This document shows, one piece after another, positions 1 to 22,300 of a DNA stretch of 41,883 bases. Below the pieces are notes generated by a model. It was given only the letters and a program-made list of their open reading frames with translations. It made no database searches and was not told where the DNA came from. The stretch spans positions 1-41,883 of the IMG/VR virus record IMGVR_UViG_3300022921_000040, one strand, 5' to 3'. How positions within the stretch are numbered: position 1 is the first letter of the stretch; each line of letters begins with the position of its first letter. A program made the translations under genes and the position numbers. The stretch is from a virus.

Positions 1-2
1 CA

Positions 3-134
3 CAAGGCTGTGTGGACGCCGACCTAGACATGAGCAAGGTAGAGGACATCTTGTACTGCAAGTTCGAATGGACGGGTGAGATGCTCAGAGACTTGTACCA
101 CTACTCAAGAGAGGGACTGATAAAGGTTAACTGA
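3..134 (+). CDS. 3' end of a hypothetical protein (cut by window start)
   Basis: Only the last 43 residues are visible, in the frame that stays open from the left edge to a TGA at 132-134. They are acidic and aromatic (ending in YHYSREGLIKVN) and resemble the small early proteins downstream in composition. I do not recognise a family. The stop codon lies inside the CUGAUGA core of the first hammerhead ribozyme, so translation termination and ribozyme folding share the same bases. The start is outside the window. Confidence 0.65.
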   Translation, partial: QGCVDADLDMSKVEDILYCKFEWTGEMLRDLYHYSREGLIKVN

Positions 135-176
135 TGAGACTTCAATAGTCGAAACGTCCTTAGGGACGTCTTAACC
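125..176 (+). ncRNA. Hammerhead ribozyme 1 (type I)
   Basis: All invariant parts of a hammerhead are present in order. Stem I is GGUUAA (125-130) with UUAACC (171-176). The core CUGAUGA is at 131-137. Stem II is GAC/GUC (138-140/148-150) around a 7-nt loop. GAAA is at 151-154. Stem III is CGUCC/GGACG (155-159/164-168) with a UUAG loop. The cleavage triplet is GUC, so the cut falls after C170. Stem I is the open stem, giving type I. The element overlaps the stop codon of the upstream gene and ends 15 nt before the next ATG. A second copy at 841-892 has compensatory changes. Self-cleavage is inferred from the complete core, not shown. Confidence 0.93.
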
Positions 177-191
177 ATAAATTTTAATCAC

Positions 192-443
192 ATGGGAAGT
201 TCAAAGAATTACAAAGTATTAACTCAAGAGGTTTATTGCCATCACTTTTTGTTGTTTTCCGATTTTGAGTACAAAGGGAAAAAATACCTTGTTAAATCAC
301 ACTATTATGATGGTGGTTGGGGATTTGAAAATACCGAAGTACTTGACGAGAATGAGGATTGTGTTAACGACAATGAAATTGTATCAATAGCTAATGACAT
401 TATTTGTGATATGGATATCGAAAACTATAAAGTCAGAAGCTAA
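192..443 (+). CDS. Hypothetical small acidic protein (83 aa)
   Basis: Unrecognised. No signal peptide or membrane segment is visible; the middle has a short beta-rich stretch (FEYKGKKYLVKSHYYDGGWG), followed by an acidic C-terminal half. The phrase 'F-x-YKGKxY' recurs in the protein at 3241-3510, a weak hint that the two share a fold. The ATG stands 21 nt after the predicted hammerhead cleavage point (C170), so the cleaved mRNA would begin with a short AU-rich leader ending AAUUUUAAUCAC. There is no Shine-Dalgarno, in keeping with Bacteroidota initiation. Confidence 0.75.
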   Translation: MGSSKNYKVLTQEVYCHHFLLFSDFEYKGKKYLVKSHYYDGGWGFENTEVLDENEDCVNDNEIVSIANDIICDMDIENYKVRS

Positions 444-470
444 ATCAAGGTTAATCATAATAAAATCGAC

Positions 471-563
471 ATGAAAAAAGACATCATACAAGCGGTGCTA
501 TTCGTAGCGTTTTCCGCAGTACTATTCAAATCATTATTAATCCTAATTCTAATCTTATCATGA
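471..563 (+). CDS. Single-pass membrane mini-protein (30 aa)
   Basis: Thirty codons from ATG 471 to TGA 561-563 encode a short charged start (MKKDII) followed by about 22 hydrophobic residues, a single predicted membrane helix. The stop overlaps the next start as ATGA, the coupling used throughout this operon, which supports it being real. The leader and first codons (AATCGAC, then ATGAAAAAAGA) nearly repeat those of the ardC-like gene at 911. Function unknown; tiny membrane proteins in phage early regions sometimes act in superinfection exclusion or lysis, but nothing here decides that. Confidence 0.6.
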   Translation: MKKDIIQAVLFVAFSAVLFKSLLILILILS

Positions 564-844
564 AATTAACTGAGACACTAATCCAAGCCCTAGTAACGCA
601 AGAAGAGAGAGCAATCTTTAAAACCACATACGACAAGGTGCCGTGTGAGGTAAACATCGGTGACCGATACTTTGTCGTGAAATTCAAGGACGGGCTAATG
701 TTCCAACAAAACGAAGAGGACGTCGTAGATGGTAGTTGCTTTGACTACGAAGATATTGAGGTGTACACGTCTGTCGGAGAAGCAAACATCATCGTCAACT
801 CGAAGTTGTGGTTCGAAAGGTTCGGTAACCTTGAGCTAAAGTAA
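560..844 (+). CDS. Hypothetical acidic protein (94 aa)
   Basis: Unrecognised soluble protein with an N-terminal helix (MKLTETLIQALVTQEERAIF) and a beta-rich, acidic middle (GDRYFVVKF, then NEEDVVDG). Translation appears coupled to the upstream membrane mini-protein by a 4-base ATGA overlap. Its TAA stop (842-844) lies inside the 5' strand of stem I of the second hammerhead ribozyme, so a ribosome finishing this gene would cover part of the ribozyme. It is the last gene of the 716-nt segment bounded by the two ribozyme cleavage sites. Confidence 0.75.
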   Translation: MKLTETLIQALVTQEERAIFKTTYDKVPCEVNIGDRYFVVKFKDGLMFQQNEEDVVDGSCFDYEDIEVYTSVGEANIIVNSKLWFERFGNLELK

Positions 845-892
845 CTCTGATGAGCCTTCAGTAGGCGAAACGTCCTTCGGGACGTCAGTTAC
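841..892 (+). ncRNA. Hammerhead ribozyme 2 (type I)
   Basis: This is a second complete hammerhead. Stem I is GUAACU (841-846) with AGUUAC (887-892). CUGAUGA is at 847-853. Stem II is GCC/GGC (854-856/864-866) with a 7-nt loop. GAAA is at 867-870. Stem III is CGUCC/GGACG (871-875/880-884) capped by a stable UUCG tetraloop. The cleavage triplet is GUC, cut after C886. Compared with copy 1, stems I and II change sequence but keep pairing (A139-U149 becomes C855-G865), while every catalytic base is identical. That is covariation for structure. Cleavage would leave a 24-nt leader before the ardC-like start at 911. Confidence 0.94.
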
Positions 893-910
893 AAATTAAA
901 TACAATCGAC

Positions 911-1819
911 ATGAAAAAAGATGTTTACCAAGTAGTAAATGAAATTGTAATCAAGGGACTAGAAACCAAAGGTCTCAAGTGGTTCAAGAGTTGGAAAAAC
1001 TCAAACGGGAACATAGAGTCCCCAATCAACAGACAGACGGGCAAGCCGTACAACGGAATCAATGTCTTCCTTCTCAACGCCTTGATGGCCGAGAACGACT
1101 ACATGTACAACGAGTGGATGACCTACAAGCAGGCTGAAGCTTTGGGAGGTAACGTAGTGAAAGGTTCGAAGTCGGCGGAGGTATTCTACTACCACGTGTC
1201 ATTCAAGGACAACAACGACGACACCTACTACATGAACGAGCAGAAGTTACGTGAGGCAGGCAAGTCACCAAGCGACAAGGGAATACAGAAGATATTCTCG
1301 CTAAGAATGTACCGAGTGTTTAACATCGACCAGACCGAAGGAATCAAGCCAAGGCGTCAAGTGAACGAACACCCGAAAAGAGTGAATTCGATCGATTCAG
1401 CGGAAGCAATCATTGCAGGGTTCAAAGACAAGCCGACGATACGCAACGTCGAACAAGACAGAGCATACTACTCACCGAGTCAAGACCTCATCGTGATGCC
1501 ACTGATGGAGCAGTTCGACAGAGAAGATAACTACTACAAGACATTGTTCCACGAGCTAGTCCATAGCACAGGACACGAGTCTAGAGTAGGACGCAAGCTA
1601 GAGGGGTTCCATGCAAGCTCTGATAGCTACTCGTTCGAGGAACTGATAGCTGAAATCGGAGCCATGTACCTCACCTCAATCGCAGACCTCAACACCTCAG
1701 ACGATAGTAGCCAAGCCTACATCAACGGGTGGGTTGAGTACTTGAAGGGTGAGCCGAAGGACATCATCGTCCGAGCGATGACCCAATCAAAGAAAGCAGT
1801 CGAATACATAACTGCCTAG
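911..1819 (+). CDS. ardC: ArdC-like antirestriction protein (ssDNA-binding domain plus zincin)
   Basis: At 302 aa it has the ArdC family's size and two-domain plan. The N-terminal domain (about residues 1-140) contains the characteristic PYNGIN segment near residue 46. The C-terminal zincin-like domain has a zinc site HELVHSTGHE with H214, E215 and H218, followed by EELIAEIGAMYL supplying the downstream acidic ligand. ArdC proteins travel with plasmids and phages, bind single-stranded DNA and protect incoming DNA from host restriction. The start follows an A-rich leader (AAATACAATCGAC) just after ribozyme 2, so ribozyme cleavage would give this gene its own 5' end. Family assignment is confident; the protective role here is inferred. 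Confidence 0.9.
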   Translation: MKKDVYQVVNEIVIKGLETKGLKWFKSWKNSNGNIESPINRQTGKPYNGINVFLLNALMAENDYMYNEWMTYKQAEALGGNVVKGSKSAEVFYYHVSFKDNNDDTYYMNEQKLREAGKSPSDKGIQKIFSLRMYRVFNIDQTEGIKPRRQVNEHPKRVNSIDSAEAIIAGFKDKPTIRNVEQDRAYYSPSQDLIVMPLMEQFDREDNYYKTLFHELVHSTGHESRVGRKLEGFHASSDSYSFEELIAEIGAMYLTSIADLNTSDDSSQAYINGWVEYLKGEPKDIIVRAMTQSKKAVEYITA

Positions 1820-1822
1820 GCT

Positions 1823-1978
1823 ATGTACGAGTTCAAGCTAACGTACCAAGACGATTCGAAAGGGGTGTACCACAAGGAGTGTGTACATCCCAAACGAACA
1901 AAGGTCTACAAGCACTGCATGTCGCTACTAGACCAAGATATTATCAAGAGATTTACTTACTATAAAATACAATCATGA
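1823..1978 (+). CDS. Hypothetical basic small protein (51 aa)
   Basis: ATG 1823 lies 3 nt after the ardC-like stop, and the TGA (1976-1978) overlaps the next ATG as ATGA. The product is rich in Lys, Tyr and Cys/His (HKECVHPKRTKVYKHC), unlike its acidic neighbours. The two Cys and three His residues in the middle could bind a metal, but the spacing is not a known zinc finger. The open frame, tight spacing and overlap support a real gene; function unknown. Confidence 0.6.
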   Translation: MYEFKLTYQDDSKGVYHKECVHPKRTKVYKHCMSLLDQDIIKRFTYYKIQS

Positions 1979-2448
1979 TACACAGAAGCACACACACTTA
2001 CTGGAACAACAAAGGCCGTTACCAAAACATCTATGACAAGTTAATAGAGGAGATGCCTTTCTACGGAGCGTCAGACGACGAAGACATTGAAGCAATCAGA
2101 TGCATATCAAAAATCGTGTACGACGTCTACACTAACGGAGCGTGTAACTTAGTAGGCCAACAACACGTAGAAGACGACGACGAAGGGTACTACGTGTTCG
2201 ATATCAAGTGGGGTAACCACGAAGACAAGTTCAAGACTATCGAGCGTTACCTTAACGGAGACAGACAATACATGAACGCAAACGACACCGAGCTAGGTAA
2301 GTTAATACTAGACGGCCAAGCGTGGGGAGGGTACAACGACAACGACCTAGCCAAGCTAGAAACAATTATGAACCAAGTAATCAGAAAAGCATATGCGACC
2401 AGAATTGCAAGAGGCACTAAACAACGTGACCTTACAACTGCTGAATAG
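1975..2448 (+). CDS. Hypothetical protein (157 aa)
   Basis: Unrecognised. It is acidic through the centre (SDDEDIEAIR and VEDDDEGYYVFDIKWG) with a basic tail (RIARGTKQRDL). The start overlaps the preceding stop by 4 nt and follows the recurrent AAATACAATC leader. The last 56 nt overlap the next gene in another frame. No membrane segment or signal peptide is visible. Codons here lean toward C-ending GAC, TAC and AAC, as in the rest of the left arm. Confidence 0.75.
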   Translation: MIHRSTHTYWNNKGRYQNIYDKLIEEMPFYGASDDEDIEAIRCISKIVYDVYTNGACNLVGQQHVEDDDEGYYVFDIKWGNHEDKFKTIERYLNGDRQYMNANDTELGKLILDGQAWGGYNDNDLAKLETIMNQVIRKAYATRIARGTKQRDLTTAE

Positions 2449-2620
2449 TCTCCAGTACGGAGAGGAGCTAGAGTTAAACGACACCTACACCTTGTACCGA
2501 TACGTTGAGGACGACTGCGTCAGCATCGTTGAGACGCAGGAATGGAACGAAGTTCTTGCGGTAACGTGGGACGAGTTCAACATCGAGTACGATGTGATTG
2601 AACCAAGCTTAGTATCATGA
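2393..2620 (+). CDS. Hypothetical acidic protein (75 aa)
   Basis: Unrecognised. It has a short N-terminal helix (RPELQEALNNVTLQLLNSL) and an acidic, aromatic C-terminal half (YRYVEDDCVSIVETQEW). It starts inside the 3' end of the previous gene (56-nt overlap) and stops in an ATGA overlap with the next. No ATG occurs after the overlap before the conserved-looking part, so the overlapping start is preferred. Confidence 0.65.
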   Translation: MRPELQEALNNVTLQLLNSLQYGEELELNDTYTLYRYVEDDCVSIVETQEWNEVLAVTWDEFNIEYDVIEPSLVS

Positions 2621-2793
2621 ACGAGGTGCTACAACTTAGGTGCGAGCTAGAACAGATGGCAATCATCGAGGAGGTTATGTTCTTCGGGGTGGTTGCCATG
2701 CTGATACAAGTGGTGTTGATTTACCAAAACATTAATTTAATTCACAGAAAGAAATGGACTACACAGAAATTACAATCGAGGGGGACAAGGTAA
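2617..2793 (+). CDS. Single-pass membrane protein (58 aa)
   Basis: ATG 2617 overlaps the upstream TGA as ATGA, and the frame closes with TAA at 2791-2793. The sequence shows an acidic N-terminal helix (about residues 2-20), a hydrophobic segment FFGVVAMLIQVVLIY (about 22-36) and a basic C-terminus, giving a predicted N-out/C-in helix. The end overlaps the next gene by 40 nt. Function unknown. Confidence 0.55.
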   Translation: MNEVLQLRCELEQMAIIEEVMFFGVVAMLIQVVLIYQNINLIHRKKWTTQKLQSRGTR

Positions 2794-3212
2794 CAATGAG
2801 TGCCGAAGCCTTCACAAAGATCGAATTAAGAGAAGATAAACTTGAAGACGAAGTGTTTCAATGCTTCTTAAAAATAACAGAAGCTAGGGAGGCTTTCAAA
2901 GAAGAGTCAAGAAGTTTAGGCAACGTGATACACGAGCTACAAGTCGAGTTGAACGAAGCTAAACGCAAAATTAAAATGTACGAGGCGTTTGCAAATTACG
3001 GGTACGTAGTGTTCAGCTACACCTCAACGGACTGCGACAACACGACCTCACACGGGTGGCTCAAGTGCTACTCGTTCGAGCAAGTCGATGGAGCTATCGA
3101 CGGGCTATACGAAGACGCTGAGGGTAGCGTCGGGTACGAGATAATAACAGAAAACCTTGAAGAGTTCAAGGGAGAATCCGACCGCTACACCTACGGAGGT
3201 GTGTGGTACTAA
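2754..3212 (+). CDS. Coiled-coil hypothetical protein (152 aa)
   Basis: Residues about 20-80 form a likely helix or coiled coil (LREDKLEDEV through VELNEAKRKIKMYEAF). The C-terminal half is beta-rich and aromatic with short acidic runs (YEDAEGSVGYEI). The N-terminus TEITIEGDKVTMSAEAF is a two-stranded element often seen at the front of small phage coiled-coil proteins. No family name can be given. The start overlaps the preceding small membrane gene by 40 nt. Confidence 0.75.
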   Translation: MDYTEITIEGDKVTMSAEAFTKIELREDKLEDEVFQCFLKITEAREAFKEESRSLGNVIHELQVELNEAKRKIKMYEAFANYGYVVFSYTSTDCDNTTSHGWLKCYSFEQVDGAIDGLYEDAEGSVGYEIITENLEEFKGESDRYTYGGVWY

Positions 3213-3240
3213 TATTCACTATCATCAAATACAAATAACT

Positions 3241-3510
3241 ATGTCTAATTACGAAGTAATAGAAGAAAAAGCAATTGTAGAATACATTAATTTAAAAGCA
3301 AGCTTTGTTTACAAAGGCAAATTTTATCGAGCAGTAGGAATCCTTTGGCCTAATGACTCTTCAGTAGATGACGTTGAAGTCATATGGAACGATGGTGAGA
3401 TTAACCACCACCTAGATATTCATCACCCCGCTTTCGGTATAGGATTGTCTATACTAGATACTATGGAGGTTGACTTAGAAAAAATGGAAATTAATAAAGA
3501 AACTTGTTAA
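3241..3510 (+). CDS. Hypothetical protein (89 aa)
   Basis: I start the gene at ATG 3241, which follows an AAATACAAATAACT leader and leaves a 28-nt gap, rather than at an in-frame ATG 84 nt upstream that would overlap the previous gene. Unrecognised, acidic; FVYKGKFYRAVG (near residues 21-32) resembles a segment of the protein at 192-443. The stop abuts the next start directly (3510/3511). Confidence 0.7.
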   Translation: MSNYEVIEEKAIVEYINLKASFVYKGKFYRAVGILWPNDSSVDDVEVIWNDGEINHHLDIHHPAFGIGLSILDTMEVDLEKMEINKETC

Positions 3511-3750
3511 ATGAGAACACTAGAGCAAATTATCGAGAAGTTCAATGAACTTAAAGACGAGTACGACGACTACGGGTACGGAGACATCCACGACCAAATC
3601 TACTACCAAATCAGTGGAGCAGTTGAAGACTACTCAAACAACGAGAAAGACGAGGCCTTACTAAAAGACCTCAACGAACTCGTAGACCAGTTAGAGTCAC
3701 ACCTCTACTACATCACGAACTTACCAGACTTTAAATGGATATACGGATGA
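3511..3750 (+). CDS. Hypothetical acidic helical protein (79 aa)
   Basis: Unrecognised. Predicted largely helical and strongly acidic (NELKDEYDDYGYGDIHDQIYYQ), with heptad-like leucines toward the end (LLKDLNELVDQLESHL). It begins one base after the previous stop and ends in an ATGA overlap with the next gene. A regulatory or host-interaction role is possible for such early proteins, but nothing in the sequence points to a target. Confidence 0.75.
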   Translation: MRTLEQIIEKFNELKDEYDDYGYGDIHDQIYYQISGAVEDYSNNEKDEALLKDLNELVDQLESHLYYITNLPDFKWIYG

Positions 3751-3929
3751 GAACACCAGAGGAACTATACGAGTACGAAACGAAGCGGTGTAAAGAGTAC
3801 ACCACTAAAATCGAGGAGCTAATCAAAGACCACCCTAACAAGAGTCAGATACTACACCTTGTTGAGTGGTACGGGAAAGCTAGAGCAATTAAATCAAAAG
3901 CATATCAAGAAATTAAATCAAAGTTATGA
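3747..3929 (+). CDS. Hypothetical small helical protein (60 aa)
   Basis: I choose ATG 3747, which overlaps the previous TGA as ATGA; another in-frame ATG lies 12 nt upstream. The protein is charged and helical (TPEELYEYETKRCKEYTTKIEELI). The TGA stop again overlaps the following ATG by 4 nt, so three consecutive genes are translationally linked. No family recognised. Confidence 0.7.
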   Translation: MRTPEELYEYETKRCKEYTTKIEELIKDHPNKSQILHLVEWYGKARAIKSKAYQEIKSKL

Positions 3930-4264
3930 GAGTTGTAGAAAACATCACGAACTACCTTATTGAGTTAGAGGTAAAGTCACTACTAAGTTGTGAAGACACA
4001 AGTGTCGAATGGGTTGAAGAAAACTACTGCCTAATCTTTTGTGAGGAGTCAATCTTCGGGATACTTGACGACCTTATCAGAGAAGATAGTAGCGGGTACA
4101 ACCACGCACTGCGTCAGATATTAAACGACTACTGCGACGACCTAAACTTCAGCTACATTGCTGAGGAGGTACGCAAGGAGTTTAAAAAGAAGAAGATAAA
4201 CCCAAAGCTTATCCAAGATAACACTGGGTACTACCGAACCATTAAAGCAGACTACAATGGCTAG
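3926..4264 (+). CDS. Hypothetical protein (112 aa)
   Basis: Unrecognised. The acidic N-terminal two thirds (VEWVEENYCLIFCEESIFGILDD) lead into a basic patch EEVRKEFKKKKINPK near residues 80-95. There are four cysteines but no evident metal site. ATGA overlap at the start; the end overlaps the next small gene by 8 nt. Confidence 0.75.
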   Translation: MRVVENITNYLIELEVKSLLSCEDTSVEWVEENYCLIFCEESIFGILDDLIREDSSGYNHALRQILNDYCDDLNFSYIAEEVRKEFKKKKINPKLIQDNTGYYRTIKADYNG

Positions 4265-4421
4265 GTATATTCTTAGAAACTACGGGTTAAACGGAGGGCA
4301 TGAGGCTGAGACTTGTGCCTTCTCCACCTTAAAAGAGGTAAAAGAAAACGCAAGGGGGGAGTTCTCTTTGTGTCAAGATTTATTAACTGGCGAGTCCTTT
4401 GAGCCTTGCGAAATACAATAA
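4257..4421 (+). CDS. Hypothetical small protein (54 aa)
   Basis: The frame from ATG 4257 to TAA 4419-4421 overlaps the upstream gene by 8 nt and stops 4 nt before the next start. The product (beginning MARYILRNYGLNGG) holds three cysteines (near residues 20, 39 and 51). The last codons double as the AAATACAAT leader of the following gene, an economical arrangement. No family recognised. Confidence 0.55.
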   Translation: MARYILRNYGLNGGHEAETCAFSTLKEVKENARGEFSLCQDLLTGESFEPCEIQ

Positions 4422-4425
4422 AATT

Positions 4426-5025
4426 ATGGCAAACCACTGCAACAACTGGATACACTTTATGGGAAGTAAAGAGTCCTTAGAAAAACTAGAGAAGGCTTTA
4501 GGTACTTACGAAGACTTCAACCACGTCAACGACTGGGTTGACTCAATGATTGAGTTCACACCACCGAAAGACGACGAACGAGACTACTACCACTACGGGA
4601 CACGTTGGTTCGACTTCCAAGTGAGCAACGACGACGATGGTAGCTTGTTTGTTGACGGAGACTCTGCTTGGAGTCCACCGCTAGAGATGACTCGATCACT
4701 TTGCGAACACTTCAAGGTTCAAGCTCGTCACGAGTACGAGGAGATGGGTAACGACTTCGCAGGTTTTATCCGTATCGGAGACAGCGGAGCAATCGCTGAG
4801 CAACAAGAGTATAGCTACCACGAGTGGAGGTACATAGAAGACGCTGATAGTTTTATGTTTAACCTTATCGACGACTTGTTCAACGACCTACACTGCGACT
4901 TCTTTAGTAGCTTAGATGACTTGCTTGAGGAGTACAACTTCTTATCTCAAGAACACAAGAAAGAGTTAGAGAACGAATGGAATAAACCAGAGATTCAAGA
5001 AAACTTAAAAAGACAATGGCAGTAA
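4426..5025 (+). CDS. YubB/Api92-like ferredoxin-fold protein (DUF1281 type)
   Basis: The start MANHCNNWIHFMG and the later DGDSAWSPP are hallmarks I associate with the small-molecule or nucleic-acid-associated ferredoxin-like family YubB/Api92 (DUF1281), common on plasmids and phages. There the opening 'N-x-C-x-N' strand is followed by a 'FDTAWSPP'-like turn; here it is near residues 83-91. The middle is very acidic (NDDDGSLFVDGD). I prefer ATG 4426, which follows AAATACAATAAAATT, over an in-frame ATG 27 nt upstream inside the previous gene. The biochemical role of the family is unknown. The C-terminal 60 residues form an acidic helical extension. Confidence 0.7.
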   Translation: MANHCNNWIHFMGSKESLEKLEKALGTYEDFNHVNDWVDSMIEFTPPKDDERDYYHYGTRWFDFQVSNDDDGSLFVDGDSAWSPPLEMTRSLCEHFKVQARHEYEEMGNDFAGFIRIGDSGAIAEQQEYSYHEWRYIEDADSFMFNLIDDLFNDLHCDFFSSLDDLLEEYNFLSQEHKKELENEWNKPEIQENLKRQWQ

Positions 5026-5186
5026 TAACTAAAGACAATATGATTGTGGTGCAGAAGAAGTTTACAGAGCTTGAAATCTGCACCACTATACTAGCCTTGC
5101 AAGACATGATAAAAAAAGTGGAGGGCAACGATATGCTAGTAAAGAGTTGTAATAAAGTGATAACCAAATTAAAATCAAGCCTATGA
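5016..5186 (+). CDS. Hypothetical small protein (56 aa)
   Basis: ATG 5016 overlaps the end of the previous gene by 10 nt, and TGA 5184-5186 overlaps the next ATG by 4 nt. The product is mainly helical (KKFTELEICTTILALQDMIKKVEG) with alternating hydrophobic positions. No family recognised. Its retention of two tight overlaps is the main support for coding. Confidence 0.55.
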   Translation: MAVITKDNMIVVQKKFTELEICTTILALQDMIKKVEGNDMLVKSCNKVITKLKSSL

Positions 5187-5368
5187 TTAACACCGCAGAG
5201 AACGAACTGCACAGAGTATTTGTGCAAGACGTAGACACCTTACGAAAGTTGTGGGGAGACTACATGACCAAACCCTACGAGACTAAAGACTTGCTCGAAA
5301 CTATGGAGCATTACGCAGACAAGTGGGCAGAAATATGTACTAAAGTTTATATAGATAATCATGAGTAA
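5183..5368 (+). CDS. Hypothetical small acidic protein (61 aa)
   Basis: Unrecognised. Predicted helical, rich in Glu, Asp and Lys, with aromatic positions (LRKLWGDYMTKPYE). Linked to the upstream gene by ATGA and overlapping the next gene's start by 8 nt. No membrane segment. Confidence 0.65.
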   Translation: MINTAENELHRVFVQDVDTLRKLWGDYMTKPYETKDLLETMEHYADKWAEICTKVYIDNHE

Positions 5369-5621
5369 AAATTTATTAGAAGTCCTAAATCTCTTGAAGG
5401 AAGACTTCGAGATGTTACAAGATGGAAGATGGGAAATCCATTTAGCATCGGACAATGAACCAATCCAAGCATCTATTGACAATATCAATGAGGCGATTAA
5501 ATCATCTAAAAAGTTAGAATCAACATTAGAGTGGTTCAATAGTTTTGTTGACTACGTAGAGTGTTTCGATAGAAATTTGTATAACCAAGCGTGCGAGTAC
5601 GCAGATAAAAAAGAAGAATAA
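5361..5621 (+). CDS. Hypothetical acidic helical protein (86 aa)
   Basis: Unrecognised. Helix-forming, leucine- and acid-rich start (LLEVLNLLKEDFEMLQDGRWEIH), and an acidic aromatic C-terminal part (WFNSFVDYVECFDRN). The stop and the next ATG share one base (5621), so the two are probably translated together. Confidence 0.7.
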   Translation: MSKNLLEVLNLLKEDFEMLQDGRWEIHLASDNEPIQASIDNINEAIKSSKKLESTLEWFNSFVDYVECFDRNLYNQACEYADKKEE

Positions 5622-5884
5622 TGGGAGGATTTGCAGAAAGTTCATGCGTTCAGTGGGACGGCATGGACATCGAAACCCACCTTGAGGGTAGGTTAGATAT
5701 GAGAAGACAAATGTTGTTACACCAACACTTTCATGAGTTCCATGACTACCTTGACGAAGTTATGGTAAACGTACTCAGCGAGTTTGAGGACGAGATTATA
5801 GAGTTTATTAACGAGAAGATAGCCATCTATGTAGAAGATGAGCTAGAAGGAATTAAAAGGTATATCGATGAGAAAGTGTGTTAA
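5621..5884 (+). CDS. Tandem paralog A: acidic helical protein (87 aa)
   Basis: This and the next gene are duplicates. Both carry VQW-x-G-x-DIE near the N-terminus and an IIEFIN-x-KI element in the C-terminal half, ending in a charged amphipathic helix. Here the first motif is near residues 10-18 and the second near 65-72 (IIEFINEKIAIYVEDE). Length is the same (87 aa). The middle is histidine-rich (LLHQHFHEFH). Function unknown. The last codons (GAT GAG AAA GTG) contain, in another frame, the ATG of the paralog. Confidence 0.75.
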   Translation: MGGFAESSCVQWDGMDIETHLEGRLDMRRQMLLHQHFHEFHDYLDEVMVNVLSEFEDEIIEFINEKIAIYVEDELEGIKRYIDEKVC

Positions 5885-6131
5885 CAATACCGCAGTTCAA
5901 TGGAGTGGCTTAGATATAGAGGCATTCATTGACCCAATCATTGAGTTAAATAAGGAGCAATCCGAAAGACTACAAGATTATTTCGATAACGAAATGGAGA
6001 ACGTTATTGAGTCTTACAGAGATGACATTATCGAGTTCATCAATCTTAAGATTCAAGACCACGTGTATTACAACAAGAATGAAATGCTTAACGAAATAAA
6101 ACAGATACTAAATGAGAAAGTTCAGGAGTAA
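5868..6131 (+). CDS. Tandem paralog B: acidic helical protein (87 aa)
   Basis: Paralog of the preceding gene: VQWSGLDIEAF near residues 10-20, an acidic middle and IIEFINLKIQDHV near 65. It starts at an ATG inside the last codons of copy A (17-nt overlap), and the next gene starts the same way inside its own last codons, at an almost identical string ATGAGAAAGT. The duplication has therefore kept the overlapping-start arrangement. Function unknown; divergence between the copies suggests an old duplication. Confidence 0.75.
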   Translation: MRKCVNNTAVQWSGLDIEAFIDPIIELNKEQSERLQDYFDNEMENVIESYRDDIIEFINLKIQDHVYYNKNEMLNEIKQILNEKVQE

Positions 6132-6237
6132 TCAAGGGAGAGACCCGAAACGTAACGAGTATAGCTACCAAGCGGTAATTACCATCCTACTTATAGGGTT
6201 TACGTTAGTGATGATTAACTTAATAAACAAATTGTAA
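6112..6237 (+). CDS. Single-pass membrane mini-protein (41 aa)
   Basis: The frame from ATG 6112 to TAA 6235-6237 gives a basic N-terminus (MRKFRSNQGRDPKR) and a hydrophobic segment (AVITILLIGFTLVMINLI), so a predicted small membrane protein with cytoplasmic N-terminus. The ATG overlaps the paralog-B 3' end by 20 nt, and its stop shares a base with the next ATG. The MRK start mirrors the MRK start of paralog B because both arise from the repeated junction. Confidence 0.55.
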   Translation: MRKFRSNQGRDPKRNEYSYQAVITILLIGFTLVMINLINKL

Positions 6238-6407
6238 TGGAAGATAAAATTGTAGAGTTTGCTGAAAGCTTAGAGATCGACGCAAACGACTTAGAGTTAT
6301 TTATGGATACGGTTTATGACCCTACCAAAAAATACGAAGAAAATCAAACATTACTACTTAAGTTTATCTTGAGCAAATTTGTAGATTATGAGTTACGAAG
6401 AAGCTAG
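6237..6407 (+). CDS. Hypothetical acidic protein (56 aa)
   Basis: The frame from ATG 6237 (sharing a base with the upstream TAA) to TAG 6405-6407 encodes an acidic helical product (EFAESLEIDANDLELFMDTVYD). No family recognised. The 3' end overlaps the next gene by 20 nt. Confidence 0.55.
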   Translation: MEDKIVEFAESLEIDANDLELFMDTVYDPTKKYEENQTLLLKFILSKFVDYELRRS

Positions 6408-6561
6408 GATAGAGGCGTTAGAAAGCGAGCTGAAATCGGTGTCGAAAATGATAGGTTTTCTTATCGAAAACTACCCACACGTGTACTACGACGCTACTAT
6501 CAACCACAACATCACTATTAGCTCGTACATAACAGAGGGTAAATTCGACACCAAAGAGTAA
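6388..6561 (+). CDS. Hypothetical protein (57 aa), last gene of the first early cluster
   Basis: ATG 6388 to TAA 6559-6561. There is a helical acidic start (SYEEARIEALESELKSVSKM) and a beta-rich C-terminus. Its last codons run directly into the TCGACAYC repeat cluster; the string AAATTCGACACC inside the gene (6541-6552) is already a degenerate copy of the repeat. No family recognised. Confidence 0.55.
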   Translation: MSYEEARIEALESELKSVSKMIGFLIENYPHVYYDATINHNITISSYITEGKFDTKE

Positions 6562-6650
6562 AATCGACACCAAATCGACATCAAATCGACATCGGTTAAG
6601 TTATTGATTATCAGTTACTTACTTTAACTGGTGTCGAAATGTCGATTTTT
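6561..6650 (+). repeat. TCGACAYC repeat cluster with inverted copies; possible operator or terminator
   Basis: Three tandem 11-mers AAATCGACAYC lie at 6561-6571, 6572-6582 and 6583-6593, preceded by a degenerate copy at 6541-6552. Inverted copies GGTGTCGA (6630-6637) and AATGTCGATTT (6638-6648) follow about 37-45 nt later. The third repeat can pair with the last inverted copy (10 of 11 bases) to form a long hairpin ended by TTTTT. It separates the small-gene cluster from the replication arm. Reasonable readings are a transcription terminator, a protein-binding array or origin iterons; the sequence alone does not decide. Confidence 0.7.
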
Positions 6651-6698
6651 AATCTAATAATTACAAAAAAAATAAAGAGTAGCTGAGCATTAAATTAT

Positions 6699-6923
6699 AT
6701 GAAGAGTAAGAAGGAGACAAAAAACGACATCAAGTACAGAGGAGTAAGGTTGCATCGATCGGGCGGTCGTTTATATTGGAGGGCAGAAATATGTGTTAAT
6801 AGTCAGATAATACATTTAGGCAGGTACCTTGAACCGAAGGAAGCGGCTAAGGCTTACGACTTGTATGTTATAAAGAATGGTTTGGATAGAAAGACTAATT
6901 TCTTGAAGAAAAAAATTGCATAA
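6699..6923 (+). CDS. Stand-alone AP2-domain DNA-binding protein (74 aa)
   Basis: Nearly the whole protein is one AP2/ERF domain: YRGVR at residues 13-17, WRAEI at 27-31 (the three-stranded sheet that reads the DNA groove), LGRYLEPKEAAKAYD at about 40-54 (the packing helix) and a terminal TNF where the family has LNF. Bacterial and phage AP2 domains usually sit in HNH homing endonucleases; here no nuclease part is present. It is basic (pI clearly high), unlike the acidic genes before it. It lies just after the TCGACAYC repeats, which makes it a candidate for the protein that binds them; that link is inference. Confidence 0.88.
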   Translation: MKSKKETKNDIKYRGVRLHRSGGRLYWRAEICVNSQIIHLGRYLEPKEAAKAYDLYVIKNGLDRKTNFLKKKIA

Positions 6924-6924
6924 G

Positions 6925-7269
6925 ATGTATGATGTTTGTAGATTTACGACTATGGAATACACATTAGAAGAAATATGGCAGGCGTTCAGGCGTCACGAAA
7001 ACTCGGTTGACTTAGATACCGACGAGTTCAAAGCTTCTATTTACAAAGGAGTTAAGATGGTTAACGACGGCGAGCGTATATATATACTTAGTACCGCTTC
7101 TGATATTTATAGAGAAGTTGACGACGACATTTACTACACCTTTATTACTGAGGGTGTAGAGAATGGTGTAAAGGCCTTTCAAAAGAAAAGGTATGAGAGG
7201 CAACTGCTATCTAATATGCATAGCCAAAAGTCAAGAGAAACAATACAATCTAAAATAGATAGACTATGA
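6925..7269 (+). CDS. Hypothetical protein (114 aa)
   Basis: Unrecognised. I take ATG 6925, one base after the AP2 gene's stop; a TTG at 6916 and an ATG at 6952 (starting MEYTLEEIW) are alternatives. N-terminal helical part, a central segment with VDDDIYYTFITEGVENGVKAF and a basic C-terminus (KKRYERQLLSNMHSQKSRE). The 3' end overlaps the exonuclease gene by 4 nt, suggesting co-expression with recombination functions. Confidence 0.7.
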   Translation: MYDVCRFTTMEYTLEEIWQAFRRHENSVDLDTDEFKASIYKGVKMVNDGERIYILSTASDIYREVDDDIYYTFITEGVENGVKAFQKKRYERQLLSNMHSQKSRETIQSKIDRL

Positions 7270-8036
7270 TTAAAAAAGTAATTGAATCAAACGAAAAGTA
7301 CCACTCGTCTAGAGCTATCTCTGCTAGTGGACTAAAGGCGATACACAATAAATCTGTGTACCACTTTATCAACCAGAAGCCTTACACGAGCGACGCGTAC
7401 CAATTAGGTACCGCTATCCATACACTTGTACTTGAGCCACACTTATTTGATGAGCAGGTAAAGTTCTACGACAAGATAGACGGAAGAACCGCTGAAGGTA
7501 AGGAACAAAAGAAGTTGGTAGAGAAGTGGCAAGAAGAGGGTAAGTTAGTGTTCCCAGAGACTGATAGGGAGATGTTCACTATCATCAAAGACAACTTTGA
7601 CAACAACCCTACCGCATCAAAGTACGCTAAAGGTGATGTTGAGTTATCACACTACGTAGAAGACTTTCAAGGCGTGTACCTCAGAATACGACCTGACGTA
7701 ATTAACTACGACGAAGGTTTTATATCTGACATAAAGACTTGTAGAAGTAATACACCAAAAGCTTTTAGAAACGACATCTACAAGTACGGGTACCACATCC
7801 AAGCTACGCTCTACTGCGACGCACTAGGTATTGACCCAAGTAGGTTTATCTTCCAAGCGATCGAAACCAATCACCCGTATAGCGTTCAGTGTTATAGGTT
7901 GAGTGAAGACATGATTGAGCGTGGACGAATTGACTACGAGAACGCAATCATTCAGTGGAGAGAGTACTTAGATACTGGCGAAGCTCCACTATATAATTGG
8001 GACTTTATGGACGAAGAAGGTGTAATCATTTTGTAA
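7266..8036 (+). CDS. RecE-like PD-(D/E)XK exonuclease (exodeoxyribonuclease VIII type)
   Basis: At 256 aa this matches the nuclease module of the RecE/DUF3799 family. There is an SASGLK opening near residue 19, the structural motif YQLGTAIHTLVLEP (45-58, with H52), R142-P-D144, and the catalytic D155-I-K157 in ISDIKTC. A late QATLYCDAL helix supplies the usual Gln/Tyr. Such enzymes degrade one strand of double-stranded ends and feed a single-strand annealing partner. No RecT-like gene is evident; the next gene encodes an SSB-like protein, so the pair may perform end-resection and coating. Likely cytoplasmic and magnesium-dependent. Confidence 0.85.
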   Translation: MIKKVIESNEKYHSSRAISASGLKAIHNKSVYHFINQKPYTSDAYQLGTAIHTLVLEPHLFDEQVKFYDKIDGRTAEGKEQKKLVEKWQEEGKLVFPETDREMFTIIKDNFDNNPTASKYAKGDVELSHYVEDFQGVYLRIRPDVINYDEGFISDIKTCRSNTPKAFRNDIYKYGYHIQATLYCDALGIDPSRFIFQAIETNHPYSVQCYRLSEDMIERGRIDYENAIIQWREYLDTGEAPLYNWDFMDEEGVIIL

Positions 8037-16262: not shown

Positions 16263-16347
16263 TATATTTGTACTGATTGTATTTATAGATTCATAATCTA
16301 GTTTGTTTTGAATGTAAGAAGGGAGCCTTAAAAAGCTCCCTTTTTTT
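16263..16347 (+). ncRNA. Candidate short RNA between the convergent arms
   Basis: A TATATTTG box (16263-16270) has no gene downstream. About 7 nt later would begin a transcript of about 70 nt holding a perfect 6-bp hairpin TAGATT-CAT-AATCTA (16286-16300) and ending in the strong terminator at 16321-16347. There is no clear -33 element. This may be a small RNA or only the tail of the DUF3310 transcript. Confidence 0.3.
16321..16347 (+). terminator. Terminator of the rightward arm
   Basis: GGGAGC/GCTCCC (6 bp, with possible extra A-T pairs) around CTTAAAAA at 16321-16340, then TTTTTTT. The T-run overlaps the stop codon of the opposing giant gene at 16346, so both arms end at the same point. 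Read leftward, the hairpin is followed only by TTCTTACATT, so it is weaker in that direction. Confidence 0.9.
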
Positions 16348-19300
16348 ATTTACCCATATACTCAGAGAAGTATATTGCGAAGGCTTTCTTAGACACTCTT
16401 CTACCAGCGTTTTTACCAGTTCTTTCTAGTAAGGCTAGTTCTTCAGCTTCTAAGCTAGTGCCAAACCTGTTGTATAGCATCAACGCTTGTACTTCAGGAG
16501 TGTCTTCGTATATTACATCAAGAATTTTTCTGTCTAGGTTGATGTTCTTAAGGTATGTAGTATACTTCTTATAGTACTTTTTAAAGTCTCTAGGTTCAAA
16601 GTTATCTACTAACATCTGATTGAATTCTTCTTGACTAAAGTATCCTCCGTCTTCTACCTTCTTTCTAATCATCTTATATACTTCTTGTTCGCTCTTCCAT
16701 ATGTCGGTTTCGATGATCATTTTCTGAGTCTTCTCTTCCGCCAACTTATCATACGAGATAAGCTTCTTATTTGTTGTTCTAGTCACTTTTTTTGTGGCAG
16801 AACCTGCAAGTCTTTTTACAACATTAGCTAACTCACCCGTAAGTGTCTTGTCTTCTTTAGCGTATGCATCAAAGCCAGCATAGATAAGACCGATTGTTGG
16901 ATTAGTACTTTCGCTGGTTAAAATCTTTTCTACAAAAGCTTTAGACCTGATAGGTGAGAAACCATCGCCTAAAGCTGGAGCTATTAACTTATAGATTTCA
17001 TCTACTCTATCGTCATATAAACCTTCAGCTGTTGGATGTATATCTTTACCTCTAGGCGCTGTAAAAATTTCTTTATCATAGAACAAGTCGTAATTCATGT
17101 TATATGCTATCATAGCGCTAAGACCAGGGTTTCTGCTTACTATTTGGTTAAAAAGCCCTTTAGTAACATCTAAAGGAAGTGCACTAGTTAACCCTTGAGA
17201 TAAGTAGTTTTTAGTGTAAGAAGAATCATATCCTTTGTTTTTAAGTATAGTATTAATCACTATGTTTTCAGCAAGTGTAGTAAATACATTTGTTGTAGGT
17301 AGTTTCTTAAATCTTAAATACTCCCACTCTCCTTTTTCATCTTTCCTTCCAGTGAATATGATTTGATAGTTAGCTTTCTCGTATTCGCTAACAGACTTTA
17401 ATATCTCTTCAAGATCGTCATCATCATCCATAGCTGATAAAAGTAAGTACATAGAAAGTGACGCTAAAGAACTTGAGAAGGCCATCAATTGAATCATACT
17501 AGAACCAAACTTGACAGGGTTGGCTAAAGCGTAGTCAATACCCTTTCTCAAACCTTGAGTAGCTGCGTTTAAGTAAGGAAATACTTTGTCAGCTTGTTTC
17601 ACTACTGTTCCTCCCTGACTAAAATCAATTGTCTCTCTTGCTTCTCTTACAGCTTTTTGTTTTATAACTTCTAAAGCCTCTCCAGTAGGTTCTGCACCAT
17701 TCTCTCTCTTATATTCTTTTATTTGGTTTTCCTTAGACTTCTCGTAAACAGACATTCTGAATGCTATCTCTGAAGTCTCTCCAAGATAAGACATTACATT
17801 ACCGTATCCCTTCATCCAAGAAAGACCTATTTTTTTCCACTTACTTACAGGGTTTAGACTCTCAAGAGATTTTAAACCGTCTCTAGAAAGGTAGCTCATT
17901 CCGCCTCCATTTTCCATATACTCCCTGTACGTTTCTTTAAACTTACCTTTTTTAGTTAAGTCTGACAGGGCTTTTTGAGTAAAGAATTTCACAGCGTCTT
18001 TAGTTAGGTTGAACGCTCCTTTAAATTTATTGTTGGAGTAAACGTCAGACAAAAATAGTATGTTCTGGAAATCCACTGCGGTGTTACCTACAATAAATAA
18101 TGGGTTACCACCAGTTGCGAAGAACCTAAGTATTTTTGTTCCAGAGTATTTACCAATTTTGTCAAGAGCTTCGCTATTCTTCTTTATATCTAACAATGAG
18201 TTTGCGTACTGGCTTTGAATAACCATGTACGTTGGAACACCATCCTTGATAAACCTTACTTTAGTGTATCCTGTAAGATCTTTTGCGGTATCATACTTAT
18301 ACTTCAGCTTTCCGTTTTTATACTTTCCAATAACAGGATTGTCTAGCATAAATTCACTTAAAGCTTCTTTTACCTCAGCGCTAGCTGATAGGTATCCTTC
18401 GTAAAACTTATTAAGCATCTTGTTCTCGAAGGTAACAGCTGAAATCATAGATATGTTTGCTTGTAGCAACCACTCAGAGTCCATTATTACATCGTTCTTG
18501 TTCTCGTTACTAAGGTTCTGAATAAGGTCTTTATTCATTCCAGTCATTTCAGCATACCTATTAAGGTCTTCTTTGCTAGTACCTTCTGGAATGATATACT
18601 TGATGGTTTTGATAGGTGAGTACTCTATATCTTTTAGCTGTTCAAAAACTTCTTGAGATATTAGTCCTGCGTCTCTTAATCTTTTAAGGCTATCTGCCAT
18701 CTCACTAAAGTAGATGTCGACTCTTTTAGATAGATCAGAAAAATTATCTAGAGTCATCTCCATCTCTAAAAGATCCGCTTTAGCATCTTCATAAGTGTAG
18801 TTGTCCTTACCTACATAAGGCTCAAGACCTCTTTCGACTCTATTCTCATTGATAGCTACTATCCTTTTTATGAACACCAACTCATCAAGGTCTTTTCTTT
18901 GTTTATCGTTTAGACCTTTATATATCTTTTTGTAAGCTTCCTTAAATCTAAAGTCTGCAAAACCGCTAGCTCCAGCTCTATTAACAAACGCGTCAGCTGC
19001 TTCAGTAGCTTGTTTAGTACCTATTTCTTTTAGGAAGTCTTTTATCTTTACACCTCTGTCTAAGAATTTTTCTCTCAGACCTCGTACTACTTGTTTTAGC
19101 TTTTTTCTTTTTAACTTATCCTTGATCGCTTTTTCACTATCTTCTCTAAGCTTAGTAGATTTTCTTTTTGCTGGCCTAGATGATTCAGTGCTTGATAGTA
19201 CAGAGTCTACAATCTCATCTATATTAGACTTTCTAAAAACAACACCAAGGGTTTTTACATCCTTCTTTGTAAGTTCTTTCCCGTCCTGACCTAAAAGTAT

Positions 19301-22300
19301 TTGTTTTATAGCTCCATCAACGAATTCATCTAAAGTTATGTTAGAGAACTCTTCCTGACTCATTTGGTCAAATCCTTTTATCTTGTTTTTAACGTACTCA
19401 AAAAGAGCATTAAACCACTCTTTAAACTTATTTCTAGTGTCTTGAGATGCGTTTACTAAAGTCTCACCTCTATTACCAATAAGCTCAGCTAAAGCCTCTT
19501 CTTTTGCTAGTTCGATATCGTCAGGAAACTCCTTCTTCTTTCTTTCAAGTACCTCTGTTCCTTCGAGTAGTTTGTAACCCTTTTCAAGAAGTTGAGGATT
19601 GTTCTCCCTTAAAAAAGATGTCCATATGTGTGCGTATTCGTGAATAGCGGTGTTTACACTTTCATACTCAGGATTTAAGAATATTCTATTGTCTATAGTA
19701 AATCCGTAAACAACATCACCTCTTTTTAGTTGTTTAGATACCTCAGGAGACGCTAACATAGCTTCATACTCTTGCTTGCTGTTTACTACAGCTACAGAAG
19801 GAAATGAGCTTTTTATAAGGCCTAAAACAGCATTCAATGAATTAATTTTTTGCACTGGCTTAGCTCCTCTATACGCTTTAATTGTTGCGACCATGCCAGA
19901 AACAGCAATAGCTTGAGAAACAGCCGACATTGGTGTTGTTGCATCACCTTTCTCACTTACCTTAACCATAGGTGCTATTCTAGCATAAGCTTCAGGGAAC
20001 ACATCTGCCATATGAACAGGTTTTTCAAGAACACCTATTAACTGCCCTTTTACTCCAAATGGATAGTTTTGGTGATTTACCTCTCCGTCTTTTCTTTTTG
20101 TGACTTTACCGTTAATTACATCAATACCAGTTATAGAGATTACGTGAGAGTCAGGTATTTCTTTGGAAGCCTCTTCTCTTATGGATTCGTTTATGGTTGG
20201 TAGGTGTAGGTATTTGTAAAATTCTTTGCCTTTCGCTTCAAGAACTTTTGCTATTGCCTCTTTCTTGGGCACCCCTGGTTTTGATGCAGGCCCTAGATCT
20301 GTGCTTCCGTAAGTAAGTCTTTCTGTTATTATAACCCTGTTACCGATATTTATTTCCGTAATATTATTTAAAGCATCAACAATATTATCGTACTTGTTTA
20401 GGTGTCCAAGAGCTACTGTAGATTTGGCTCTATCTTTTAAATCTTCTTTTAGAGCCTCAAAAATTATTTGTTGCTCTTGTTTCGTGAAGTGTGTGTCAAG
20501 GTTGTCTGCTATAACTCTAAACAAAGCTTCGTTACTTTGTATAGATGTTTGTCCCATCTTAAGAATAGCCATAGGTACATGACCTTTAGGTAGTTTGCCT
20601 TCGTCCCAAAGCCTATCAAATAACTCTTTGTTTTTATTGTAAACATCCCTAGCATTTCTCAGCATTCCTTTAGCTGTCCTTTCATCAGTGTTTGCCCAAG
20701 CATTATTTTGGTTTCCTTTAGACATATTAAATCCAAGTCCACCAAAAAACTCCATTACTTTTCCAGTAAAAGGGCTAGTCCACTCACCTGTCATAAGTTG
20801 ATCCGATATAGAGAATACAAATGGTATTCCTTCAAACTCAGACATGTTTTTAATTGTCTTCACTTTTCTACCAAACCTATCCCTTAAAGATTTTAAGCTT
20901 AACTTATTTTTAGTGGTTAACTCTGAAGGGTTTTCGAAAGCCGCTTGCTCGTCAGAAAGTTGATTCATTTCATCAACAACAGCTGTAATGTCAGACGGAT
21001 CAACATCGGTTATAGTTCCTTTTTGGAACTTAGGTTGTTTAGCTTCTAACTTAGCTAGTTTTGTAGCTGCTTTTTTAGCTTCAGATCTAACAGAAGGAAG
21101 TTCTTGTTTGTAGTATTCGATAGCGTCAGCTACTCTTTCCTTCTCTTCTTGGAACTTTTCTTTTTCTTCTGCTTGTCTTTCTTTATTTCTTTTGATCTTC
21201 TCTTTAACCGTGTCAGACCAACCTTCTTCGGCGTCTGGTTTACTAGCTACTTGAAGTTCTGTTTTTAATATCTCAAGCTCTTTCTTTAGTCTTTCTGTTT
21301 GTTTAGCGTACTCTTCTTTAGCAATATTAAGGTTGTCTTTTTCGTTCTGGATTTCTTCGTTGACCTCCTCAAACCTCATATTAGCATCTTCGCTCTCTTC
21401 TCTAGCACGCTTAATATCTTCTTGTAACTGAGCTGATTTAGCTGCTTCTTTAGCCTTTGCTTTATCTTCGGCAGTCTTCTTTTTATTCATTGAAGCAGCC
21501 GCTTGTGGAGCTAATTTAGCTAGTGCCGCCTTTTGTTCAATGATAAGTGCGTCAGCCCAAACCTCTCTCATATCTGCGTCCAAGCCCATAGTTCTGGCTG
21601 TTCTAACAAACTTGTCTTTAGCCTTTCTTAGGTTTTCTTGTGCGCCTTTACTACTGGTTGACTCAGCGTCTGACTCAGCTTCTTGGAGTGTATTGAATAA
21701 CTCAGTTAGTTTTTTGTGGTCAGCGTCTTTTAACTGACCTGTTCTATCTAAGCCCTGTTCTCTTTGTGTAGTGGGTTTTTTAGGAGCCGTCTTTTTAGCA
21801 GGCTCAGCTTTCTTTGTAGGCTGTTTCTTTTTAGGGGTGGTCTTTTTGGTTTCAGCAGGTTTAACCTCCTGAGTTTGCTTCAGAAACTTATCGCTTCTTC
21901 TTATCGCTTCTTCGACCGTCTTATAAAACTCTCCCCGATCTTGTCCTTGCTGAACGGCATTTCTTGCAATATTTGAAAGAAGTTCTTTTCTTCTTGTGGG
22001 GTCGATGTATCTTGACTCGATTGCCCTTTTGTTTGCTGCTTCATGTTTTATTTTTTTGCTTTTTAGATACTCTGCAAATTTAGATATCTTTTCGTTAAAT
22101 TCAGTGCTTTGTCCCTTACTAAAATCCAAGAAAACTAATTCTCCAGTACTTTCATTGTAAGTAAAGTCGTATATATCATTATCCTTAAGAGCTTTAAGAA
22201 CCTCATCGCTCTTTGATTTGTCTGTTTTAATAGTGTATTCTAACACACCGCTATCGCTGTTGTAAGCGTCAGAATTCTCATCTACGTATTGAGCAGCTAT

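Follow-up and report, generated by a model that had tools for sequence, protein, structure and literature searches.

The left end of this viral DNA raises the question of whether two short elements, lying less than a kilobase apart, are working self-cleaving ribozymes and what they would do for the virus. The window analysed here comprises a complete IMG/VR virus record (41,883 bases), in which an earlier note had described two complete hammerheads of type I within an operon. Direct reading of the sequence bore out this description, including the catalytic bases and the cuts predicted after C170 and C886. In DNA letters, copy 1 consists of GGTTAA (125-130), CTGATGA (131-137), GAC-TTCAATA-GTC (138-150), GAAA (151-154), CGTCC-TTAG-GGACG (155-168), T169 and C170 and, past the cut, TTAACC (171-176). 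Copy 2 consists of GTAACT (841-846), CTGATGA, GCC-TTCAGTA-GGC, GAAA, CGTCC-TTCG-GGACG, T885 and C886 and, past the cut, AGTTAC (887-892). The core CUGANGA...GAAA, the A15.1-U16.1 pair and H17 are present in both, and both folding and a covariance model give each copy three stems, with stem I open and stems II and III closed as hairpins, that is, the type I topology. Pairing is kept while the sequence changes, as had been noticed: five of the six stem I pairs differ between the copies, every one by a double change, and one stem II pair is doubly changed, while stem III is identical.

Table 1. Coordinates of the two ribozymes and of the reading frames around them in the window
Feature	Position	Strand	Remark
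Upstream ORF, 3' part	12..134	+	start outside the window or GTG 12
Stop of ORF 12..134	TGA 132-134	+	inside the catalytic CUGAUGA of copy 1
Hammerhead copy 1, type I, stem I open	125..176	+	predicted cut C170/U171
Leader expected after cut 1	171..191	+	21 nt, before ATG 192
83-aa ORF, first gene past cut 1	192..443	+	no match in Pfam or PHROG
30-aa ORF between both ribozymes	471..563	+	membrane-like peptide by eye
94-aa ORF	560..844	+	stop TAA 842-844 in the 5' strand of copy 2 stem I
Hammerhead copy 2, type I	841..892	+	predicted cut C886/A887
Leader expected after cut 2	887..910	+	24 nt, before ATG 911
ArdC-like antirestriction gene, 302 aa	911..1819	+	first gene past cut 2

A scan that takes structure into account (at least 5 bp in stem I, 3 in stem II and 4 in stem III, plus core, GAAA and cut triplet) found both copies in the window and no object in 100 first-order Markov shuffles of it. 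A covariance model (R2), built from 43 copies with the window and the similar contig L074 excluded, scored copy 1 at 70.8 bits and copy 2 at 66.3 bits (rough E-values 2e-17 and 4e-16), whereas the third-best site reached 14.0 bits; neither the scan nor the model found a third copy in the window. When each copy is folded as an isolated 56-nt piece, the hammerhead is both its minimum free energy and its centroid structure (z -2.76 and -2.65). With flanks of 20, 30, 50 and 100 nt, the hammerhead of copy 1 lies 0.1-3.4 kcal/mol above the minimum-energy fold, and its exact fold has an ensemble probability of 0.003 with 50-nt and 0.025 with 100-nt flanks; for copy 2, a competing fold beats the hammerhead only with the 100-nt flank.

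At Rfam gathering scores, neither window copy reaches threshold. The above-threshold match to Hammerhead_1 (RF00163) that the earlier note had named as confirmation was not obtained: copy 1 scored 17.4 bits against a gathering score of 34 and copy 2 was not listed, and this model has topology, core and stems in common with the window copies. The best library match was RAGATH-1-hammerhead (RF03152), which shares the CUGAUGAGACUU...CGAAAC core and stem III with the window copies and gave 32 bits for copy 1 and 21.5 bits for copy 2. Since both values lie below the gathering score of 56.3, membership in RAGATH-1 was rejected; sequences preceding A2.7 are poorly conserved among the relatives, with no sign that the extra 5' hairpin of RAGATH-1 is a trait of this family. 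Because 24 related loci, scanned in the same way, gave no hammerhead match either, the Rfam criterion seems to probe the Rfam models rather than these RNAs, which suggests that annotation at gathering scores overlooks such ribozymes.

Relatives were collected with a search pattern in which parts of stem II and loop II and the initial C of stem III are specified along with the core, and stem I is left free; it matched at least 120 viral loci. Among the 125 evaluable matches in viral contigs (two incomplete ones dropped), 120 have a stem I of at least 5 bp together with a stem III of at least 3 bp, compared with 16 of 2460 when the flanks were shuffled, and stem I measures exactly 6 bp in 116 of these 120. 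Of the five matches without type I stems, four look like type III by eye and L096 appears to be a chance match. In cellular genomes, where the pattern is mostly chance, the stems were present in only 12 of 53 matches, and the placement of these 12 loci relative to an ATG is less regular than that of the viral copies. A scan of 296 genomes belonging to the same phylum as the Aquimarina genome, the Bacteroidota, returned a single copy, the seed, under stricter filters that can lose weak matches. A BLAST match in Pseudomonas (102 records) was discarded, as it covers only 21 bases of GAAA and stem III and the model found no match in one such record. The cultured Flavobacterium phages elemoA and elemoE are represented by nine matching records, two of them RefSeq copies; in each of the two elemo records searched with the model, a single copy scores 55.6 bits and its cut precedes a start codon by 28 nt, the gene being QLF85236.1 in an elemoA phage, for which Flavobacterium sp. 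BAL314 is a host. In the elemoA record (L246), the annotation places a short antisense CDS across the ribozyme at 3962-4069, probably a false gene call.

The stems of these relatives covary. In 48 aligned copies of equal length, 99.7% of the cells are paired, 217 cells are doubly changed and 13 of the 16 pairs show double changes, with a covariation score of 0.774 as against at most 0.092 when the partners are slid; these rows were chosen by a descriptor that demands stems, and the count of 120 in 125 is the stronger statement. Conservation of the core was examined in 181 sources by allowing one change in CUGAUGA, GAA or H17 while requiring strong stems. This gave 104 distinct objects, 92 of them intact (many supplied by the search pattern with its fixed core, and fewer found otherwise) and 12 with a single change, in every case at N7 and never at the ten other scored positions; reversed sequence yielded no object. 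N7 is the core position of the hammerhead that tolerates any base.

The genes around the two copies form a rightward block, in line with the operon of the earlier note. Rightward genes extend to about 16 kb and include, by Pfam and PHROG matches, an ArdC-like antirestriction gene, an exonuclease VIII-like gene, a primase/helicase-like gene and a helicase, while a leftward block holds the portal, the large terminase subunit and a match to the crAss-like phage muzzle family. The block carrying both ribozymes is probably early, judging from its genes. Three small ORFs are flanked by the two hammerheads, and the ArdC-like gene then adjoins copy 2; its product matches Pfam ArdcN (5.8e-25) and MPTase-PolyVal (1.5e-31), phrog_7245 (2.5e-67) and the solved ArdC structure 6i89 (E 1.8e-39). 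BLASTN of window positions 1-8000 against named phages gave no match, and a promoter search found 6 candidates where 3.9 were expected. The leader of the ORF at 471 (window 444-475) resembles that of the ArdC-like gene (882-915), ATCGACATGAAAAAAGA; it also contains GGTTAA and could be the scar of a lost ribozyme. In the leftward block, the 2788-aa protein at 16346-24712 (-) has no Pfam match and lies together with the crAss-like muzzle homologue.

The position of the cut relative to the next gene is preferred across the family. In 103 of 156 nonredundant copies, the cut falls 17-31 nt before the ATG of an ORF of at least 30 aa, where about 14 would be expected at random positions, and in 66 it falls 22-26 nt before it (4.8 expected); only five have no such ATG within 200 nt. 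Copies found outside the search pattern behave alike, 35 of 42 cutting 12-41 nt before an ATG. All 34 multi-copy contigs carry their copies on a single strand, and the 50 gaps between successive cuts have a median of 606.5 nt. The first downstream proteins (n=114) are short, with a median below 100 aa, and mostly without family; a preferred downstream function was rejected, as the 22 PHROG and 7 Pfam families matched among these 114 have no more than three members each.

Several side observations concern the same sites. The copies at L053 527 (+), L092 8777 (-) and L039 3455 (-) share stem I GTCCTT/AAGGAC, and in them a structured-looking stretch, AAGGACACGC..., replaces the close ORF start; the copy at L044 4058 (+) is followed by a similar-looking stretch plus a short ORF. 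A search for loop II of the RUAA form gave 83 evaluable matches, of which 44 are nonredundant type I copies and 28 have no type I stems, duplicates making up the remainder. This class is placed more loosely, with 29 of 44 cuts 12-41 nt before an ATG. Many of the 28 misses look like type III by eye; such elements, in L030, L031, L036 and L103 and among the misses in, for example, L264, L267 and L276, stand just before an ATG, and type I and type III topologies seem to be interchangeable at these sites. Shine-Dalgarno-like stretches were compared in 116 distinct cores with an ATG 12-41 nt past the cut: leaders following a TTAACC stem I 3' strand lack such a stretch in 26 of 28 cases, compared with 35 of 88 for other stems (Fisher 5e-7).

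On this sequence evidence, we consider it likely that both elements are functional type I hammerheads and that they act in cis, cutting a polycistronic transcript of the phage that is probably early. We infer that the cutting takes place in cells and serves to segment the mRNA and define 5' ends. The cuts would be made during synthesis, with 21 and 24 nt left in front of the start codon that follows, and would give shorter mRNAs. The upstream RNA would finish with hairpins II and III and carry a terminal 2',3'-cyclic phosphate, and the downstream RNA would begin with a 5'-OH and a short open leader of about 24 nt. In bacterial RNA decay, a 5'-OH end should not feed the 5'-phosphate-dependent pathway. 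Given the size of the bacterial ribosome footprint at a start codon, this spacing would put the ribozyme near the outer edge of that footprint. Against this reading stand the Rfam scores below gathering, the competing folds of copy 1, the patchy occurrence among primase relatives, the looser placement in the RUAA class and in the cellular loci, and a leader and start codon that lie outside the ribozyme, so that translation would not need the cut. Candidate benefits are stability, equalised expression or separation from upstream translation.

The stop codons of the upstream genes bring in a different possibility, namely that cutting is regulated: a ribosome terminating at the stop would keep the ribozyme unfolded, and cutting would then report translation of the upstream gene. 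A usable upstream ORF is available for 128 of the 156 copies. In 62 of these, its stop codon touches or overlaps stem I on the 5' side, in 27 the TGA of the core serves as the stop, and the window itself offers one example of each, the core TGA of copy 1 and the stem I TAA of copy 2 (Table 1). However, tight gene packing would produce similar overlap, the core contains TGATGA by necessity, and the stop lies before the ribozyme in 25 of the 128 copies and after the core in 14. We thus regard such regulation as rather unlikely, and segmentation by cutting in cis stays the preferred reading.

The earlier note had stated that stem I is only 6 bp long and has no internal loop, and that the usual contact between stem I and loop II may be absent and cleavage slow. 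The length is correct, but the inference of a missing contact is probably wrong. Such a tertiary contact is needed for hammerhead speed at cellular Mg2+. In the relatives, stem I ends at 6 bp with an unpaired A on each side (A2.7 in 94% and A1.7 in 90%, n=159). A2.7 is not a mere by-product of stop codons, because it is kept in 77 of 84 copies with the stop codon elsewhere and in 29 of 30 without a usable upstream ORF. An extended stem Ib past 6 bp was rejected, as the A on each side is conserved and unpaired and further out there is only a weak A bias. The base at 1.7 covaries with loop II: where loop II ends in A, 1.7 is U in 9 of 12 copies, and with other endings it is not U in 143 of 144 (Fisher 1.8e-11, or 3.3e-10 after removal of duplicates). 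Viewed from the other side, 9 of the 10 U1.7 copies have a loop II ending in A, and 137 copies combine A1.7 with U or G as the last base of loop II; three A-ending loops have A1.7 and five G-ending loops have G1.7.

The rule was then put to a prediction test. Where an RUAA loop II is combined with a 6-bp stem I, U1.7 was present in 33 of 33 copies; 30 of these come from contigs beyond the first sample, some being near relatives of sampled ones. RUAA copies with a longer stem I also have U at 1.7 (9 of 9), paired in the helix and thus uninformative for the rule, and the two with a 5-bp stem I have U and C. In the window, position 1.7 is A177 in copy 1 and A893 in copy 2, and the last base of loop II is U in both. 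From this covariation, a stem I-loop II contact is predicted for the class of the window copies, and slow cutting through its absence is not favoured. Minimal fast hammerheads held by a pair between U1.7 and a tetraloop A are reportedly the subject of an original paper by O'Rourke. PMC9217987 describes them as using one trans-Hoogsteen pair between U1.7 and an A of the stem II tetraloop, and states that this contact gave no gain in that paper's own constructs. The likeness lies in the 6-nt arm, with the contact at the seventh base past the cut, and in the U1.7 of the relatives' RUAA copies with a 6-bp stem I (all 33); the window class is reciprocal, with A1.7 and a loop II ending in U, or in G in some relatives.

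The distribution of the copies bears on whether they are passive or decayed ribozymes, transcribed but of little weight. Among 60 loci chosen by their primase, six hold seven copies at E < 0.01, one of them weak (24.8 bits). Of these 60 loci, 22 reach as far upstream as window copy 2 and five of the 22 carry a copy, which means that the clade can do without the ribozymes. L222, listed by the descriptor scan of these primase relatives, is unsupported by the covariance model, and the reversed-sequence control of that scan gave no object. In the whole records of 22 chosen loci, we found up to five copies each and none in L176 only, a near-identical record that extends only about 2 kb upstream of the primase, so that the region is absent. 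As regards the ArdC-like protein, no relatives were found in viral contigs, and a comparison with named phages gave 57 records, none of which reaches 60% identity, the 20 listed lying at 33-36%. That the ribozyme is conserved at the ArdC-like gene was rejected, as the model found no match in MW202801, the one such record searched. The patchy occurrence among primase relatives and the competing folds of copy 1 would fit passive elements. By contrast, a core that is essentially unchanged while the stems vary freely, a covarying contact and a preferred distance to the start codon argue against them, which makes this reading improbable.

Paired ribozymes could also release segments that then undergo ligation or circularisation, like those of satellite RNAs and retrozymes, with ends exchangeable between copies of the same stem I. 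TTAACC does occur in all copies of L010, L074, L082, L085, L091 and L093 (6 of 29 nonredundant multi-copy contigs), and stems II and III mostly differ within these six. A shared stem I per genome was nevertheless rejected as a general rule, since L056, L017 and L058 show the opposite, with stem I different and stem III alike. Within contigs (67 pairs), identity is 36% for stem I and 25% for the first four bases of stem III, as against 6% and 4% between contigs, with no clear excess of either stem. In the window, the stems I differ (TTAACC and AGTTAC), so the released segment's ends could not pair to rebuild a hammerhead. Perreault et al. (PMC3088659) sought spliced or circular products and detected none. 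Taken together, these points make circularisation very improbable. Chance resemblance deserves practically no credence, for although only 12 of 53 cellular pattern matches have the stems, the shuffles of the window gave nothing and an independent model scored both copies at 66 bits or more.

Cutting of a phage transcript in cis by functional hammerheads thus remains the preferred reading, and its kind is already known. The paper of Perreault et al. 2011 (PMC3088659) describes clustered prophage hammerheads flanking single genes or small blocks, one of them next to ardA, and proposes a segmentation role for tandem phage hammerheads; the suggestion that a tandem pair in a phage operon is new does not hold against this. 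According to the same paper, tandem prophage hammerheads cleave in vitro and one cluster does so in E. coli, the haloviruses HF1/HF2 carry one copy 13 nt upstream of the helicase start, and a mapped halovirus 5' end is no more than three nt from such a site. The window resembles those systems in having several hammerheads around genes and an antirestriction neighbour, which is ArdA there and ArdC-like here. It differs in the contact: that paper stresses pseudoknots of loop I with nucleotides past stem II, whereas the window copies have an uncapped 6-bp stem I and the predicted contact at 1.7. Copies or contacts of the window sort may be among the supplementary alignments of that paper or in its Figure S5 on tertiary contacts by type. 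What is new here is the scale, the fixed position, the contact rule and a cultured Flavobacterium phage carrying a copy; among the open-access papers listed in literature searches, none dealt with the compact class, its start-codon spacing or hammerheads at tRNA 5' ends.

Some copies lie at tRNA genes. In L094 (6483-6756), one cut coincides exactly with the 5' end that ARAGORN predicts for a tRNA-Tyr, the stem I strand doubling as the acceptor strand, and a second copy precedes a partial tRNA match at 6536-6596; in L293 (-), the cut lies one base before a tRNA-Gly. In L053 and L092, the hammerhead matches start 7 and 10 nt past a tRNA. Overall, the L094 and L293 cuts are two of 344 hammerhead matches (duplicates included) compared with 94 tRNAs, and the other 20 ARAGORN tRNAs in L094 have no cut at the 5' end, so that a general role is not favoured. 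Gut phages have theta ribozymes (PMC10879173), which are HDV-like and cut adjacent to tRNA 3' ends; like the hammerheads, they are self-cleaving RNAs widely used by phages with cuts at RNA ends. A tentative extension, which we hold to be possible though doubtful, is that bacterial viruses use compact hammerheads generally for making RNA ends: one ribozyme body would set the 5' ends of mRNAs at a fixed distance from start codons and, in some phages, those of tRNAs. If this is true, tRNA 5' ends would be matured free of RNase P, mirroring the theta ribozymes at tRNA 3' ends, and many mRNAs of phages without Shine-Dalgarno-like leaders would share the first bases UUAACC. One review (PMC6155905) calls the role of hammerheads in bacteria and phages an open question. 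The distance to the start codon, the contact rule and a cultured host-phage pair with one copy make this role directly testable.
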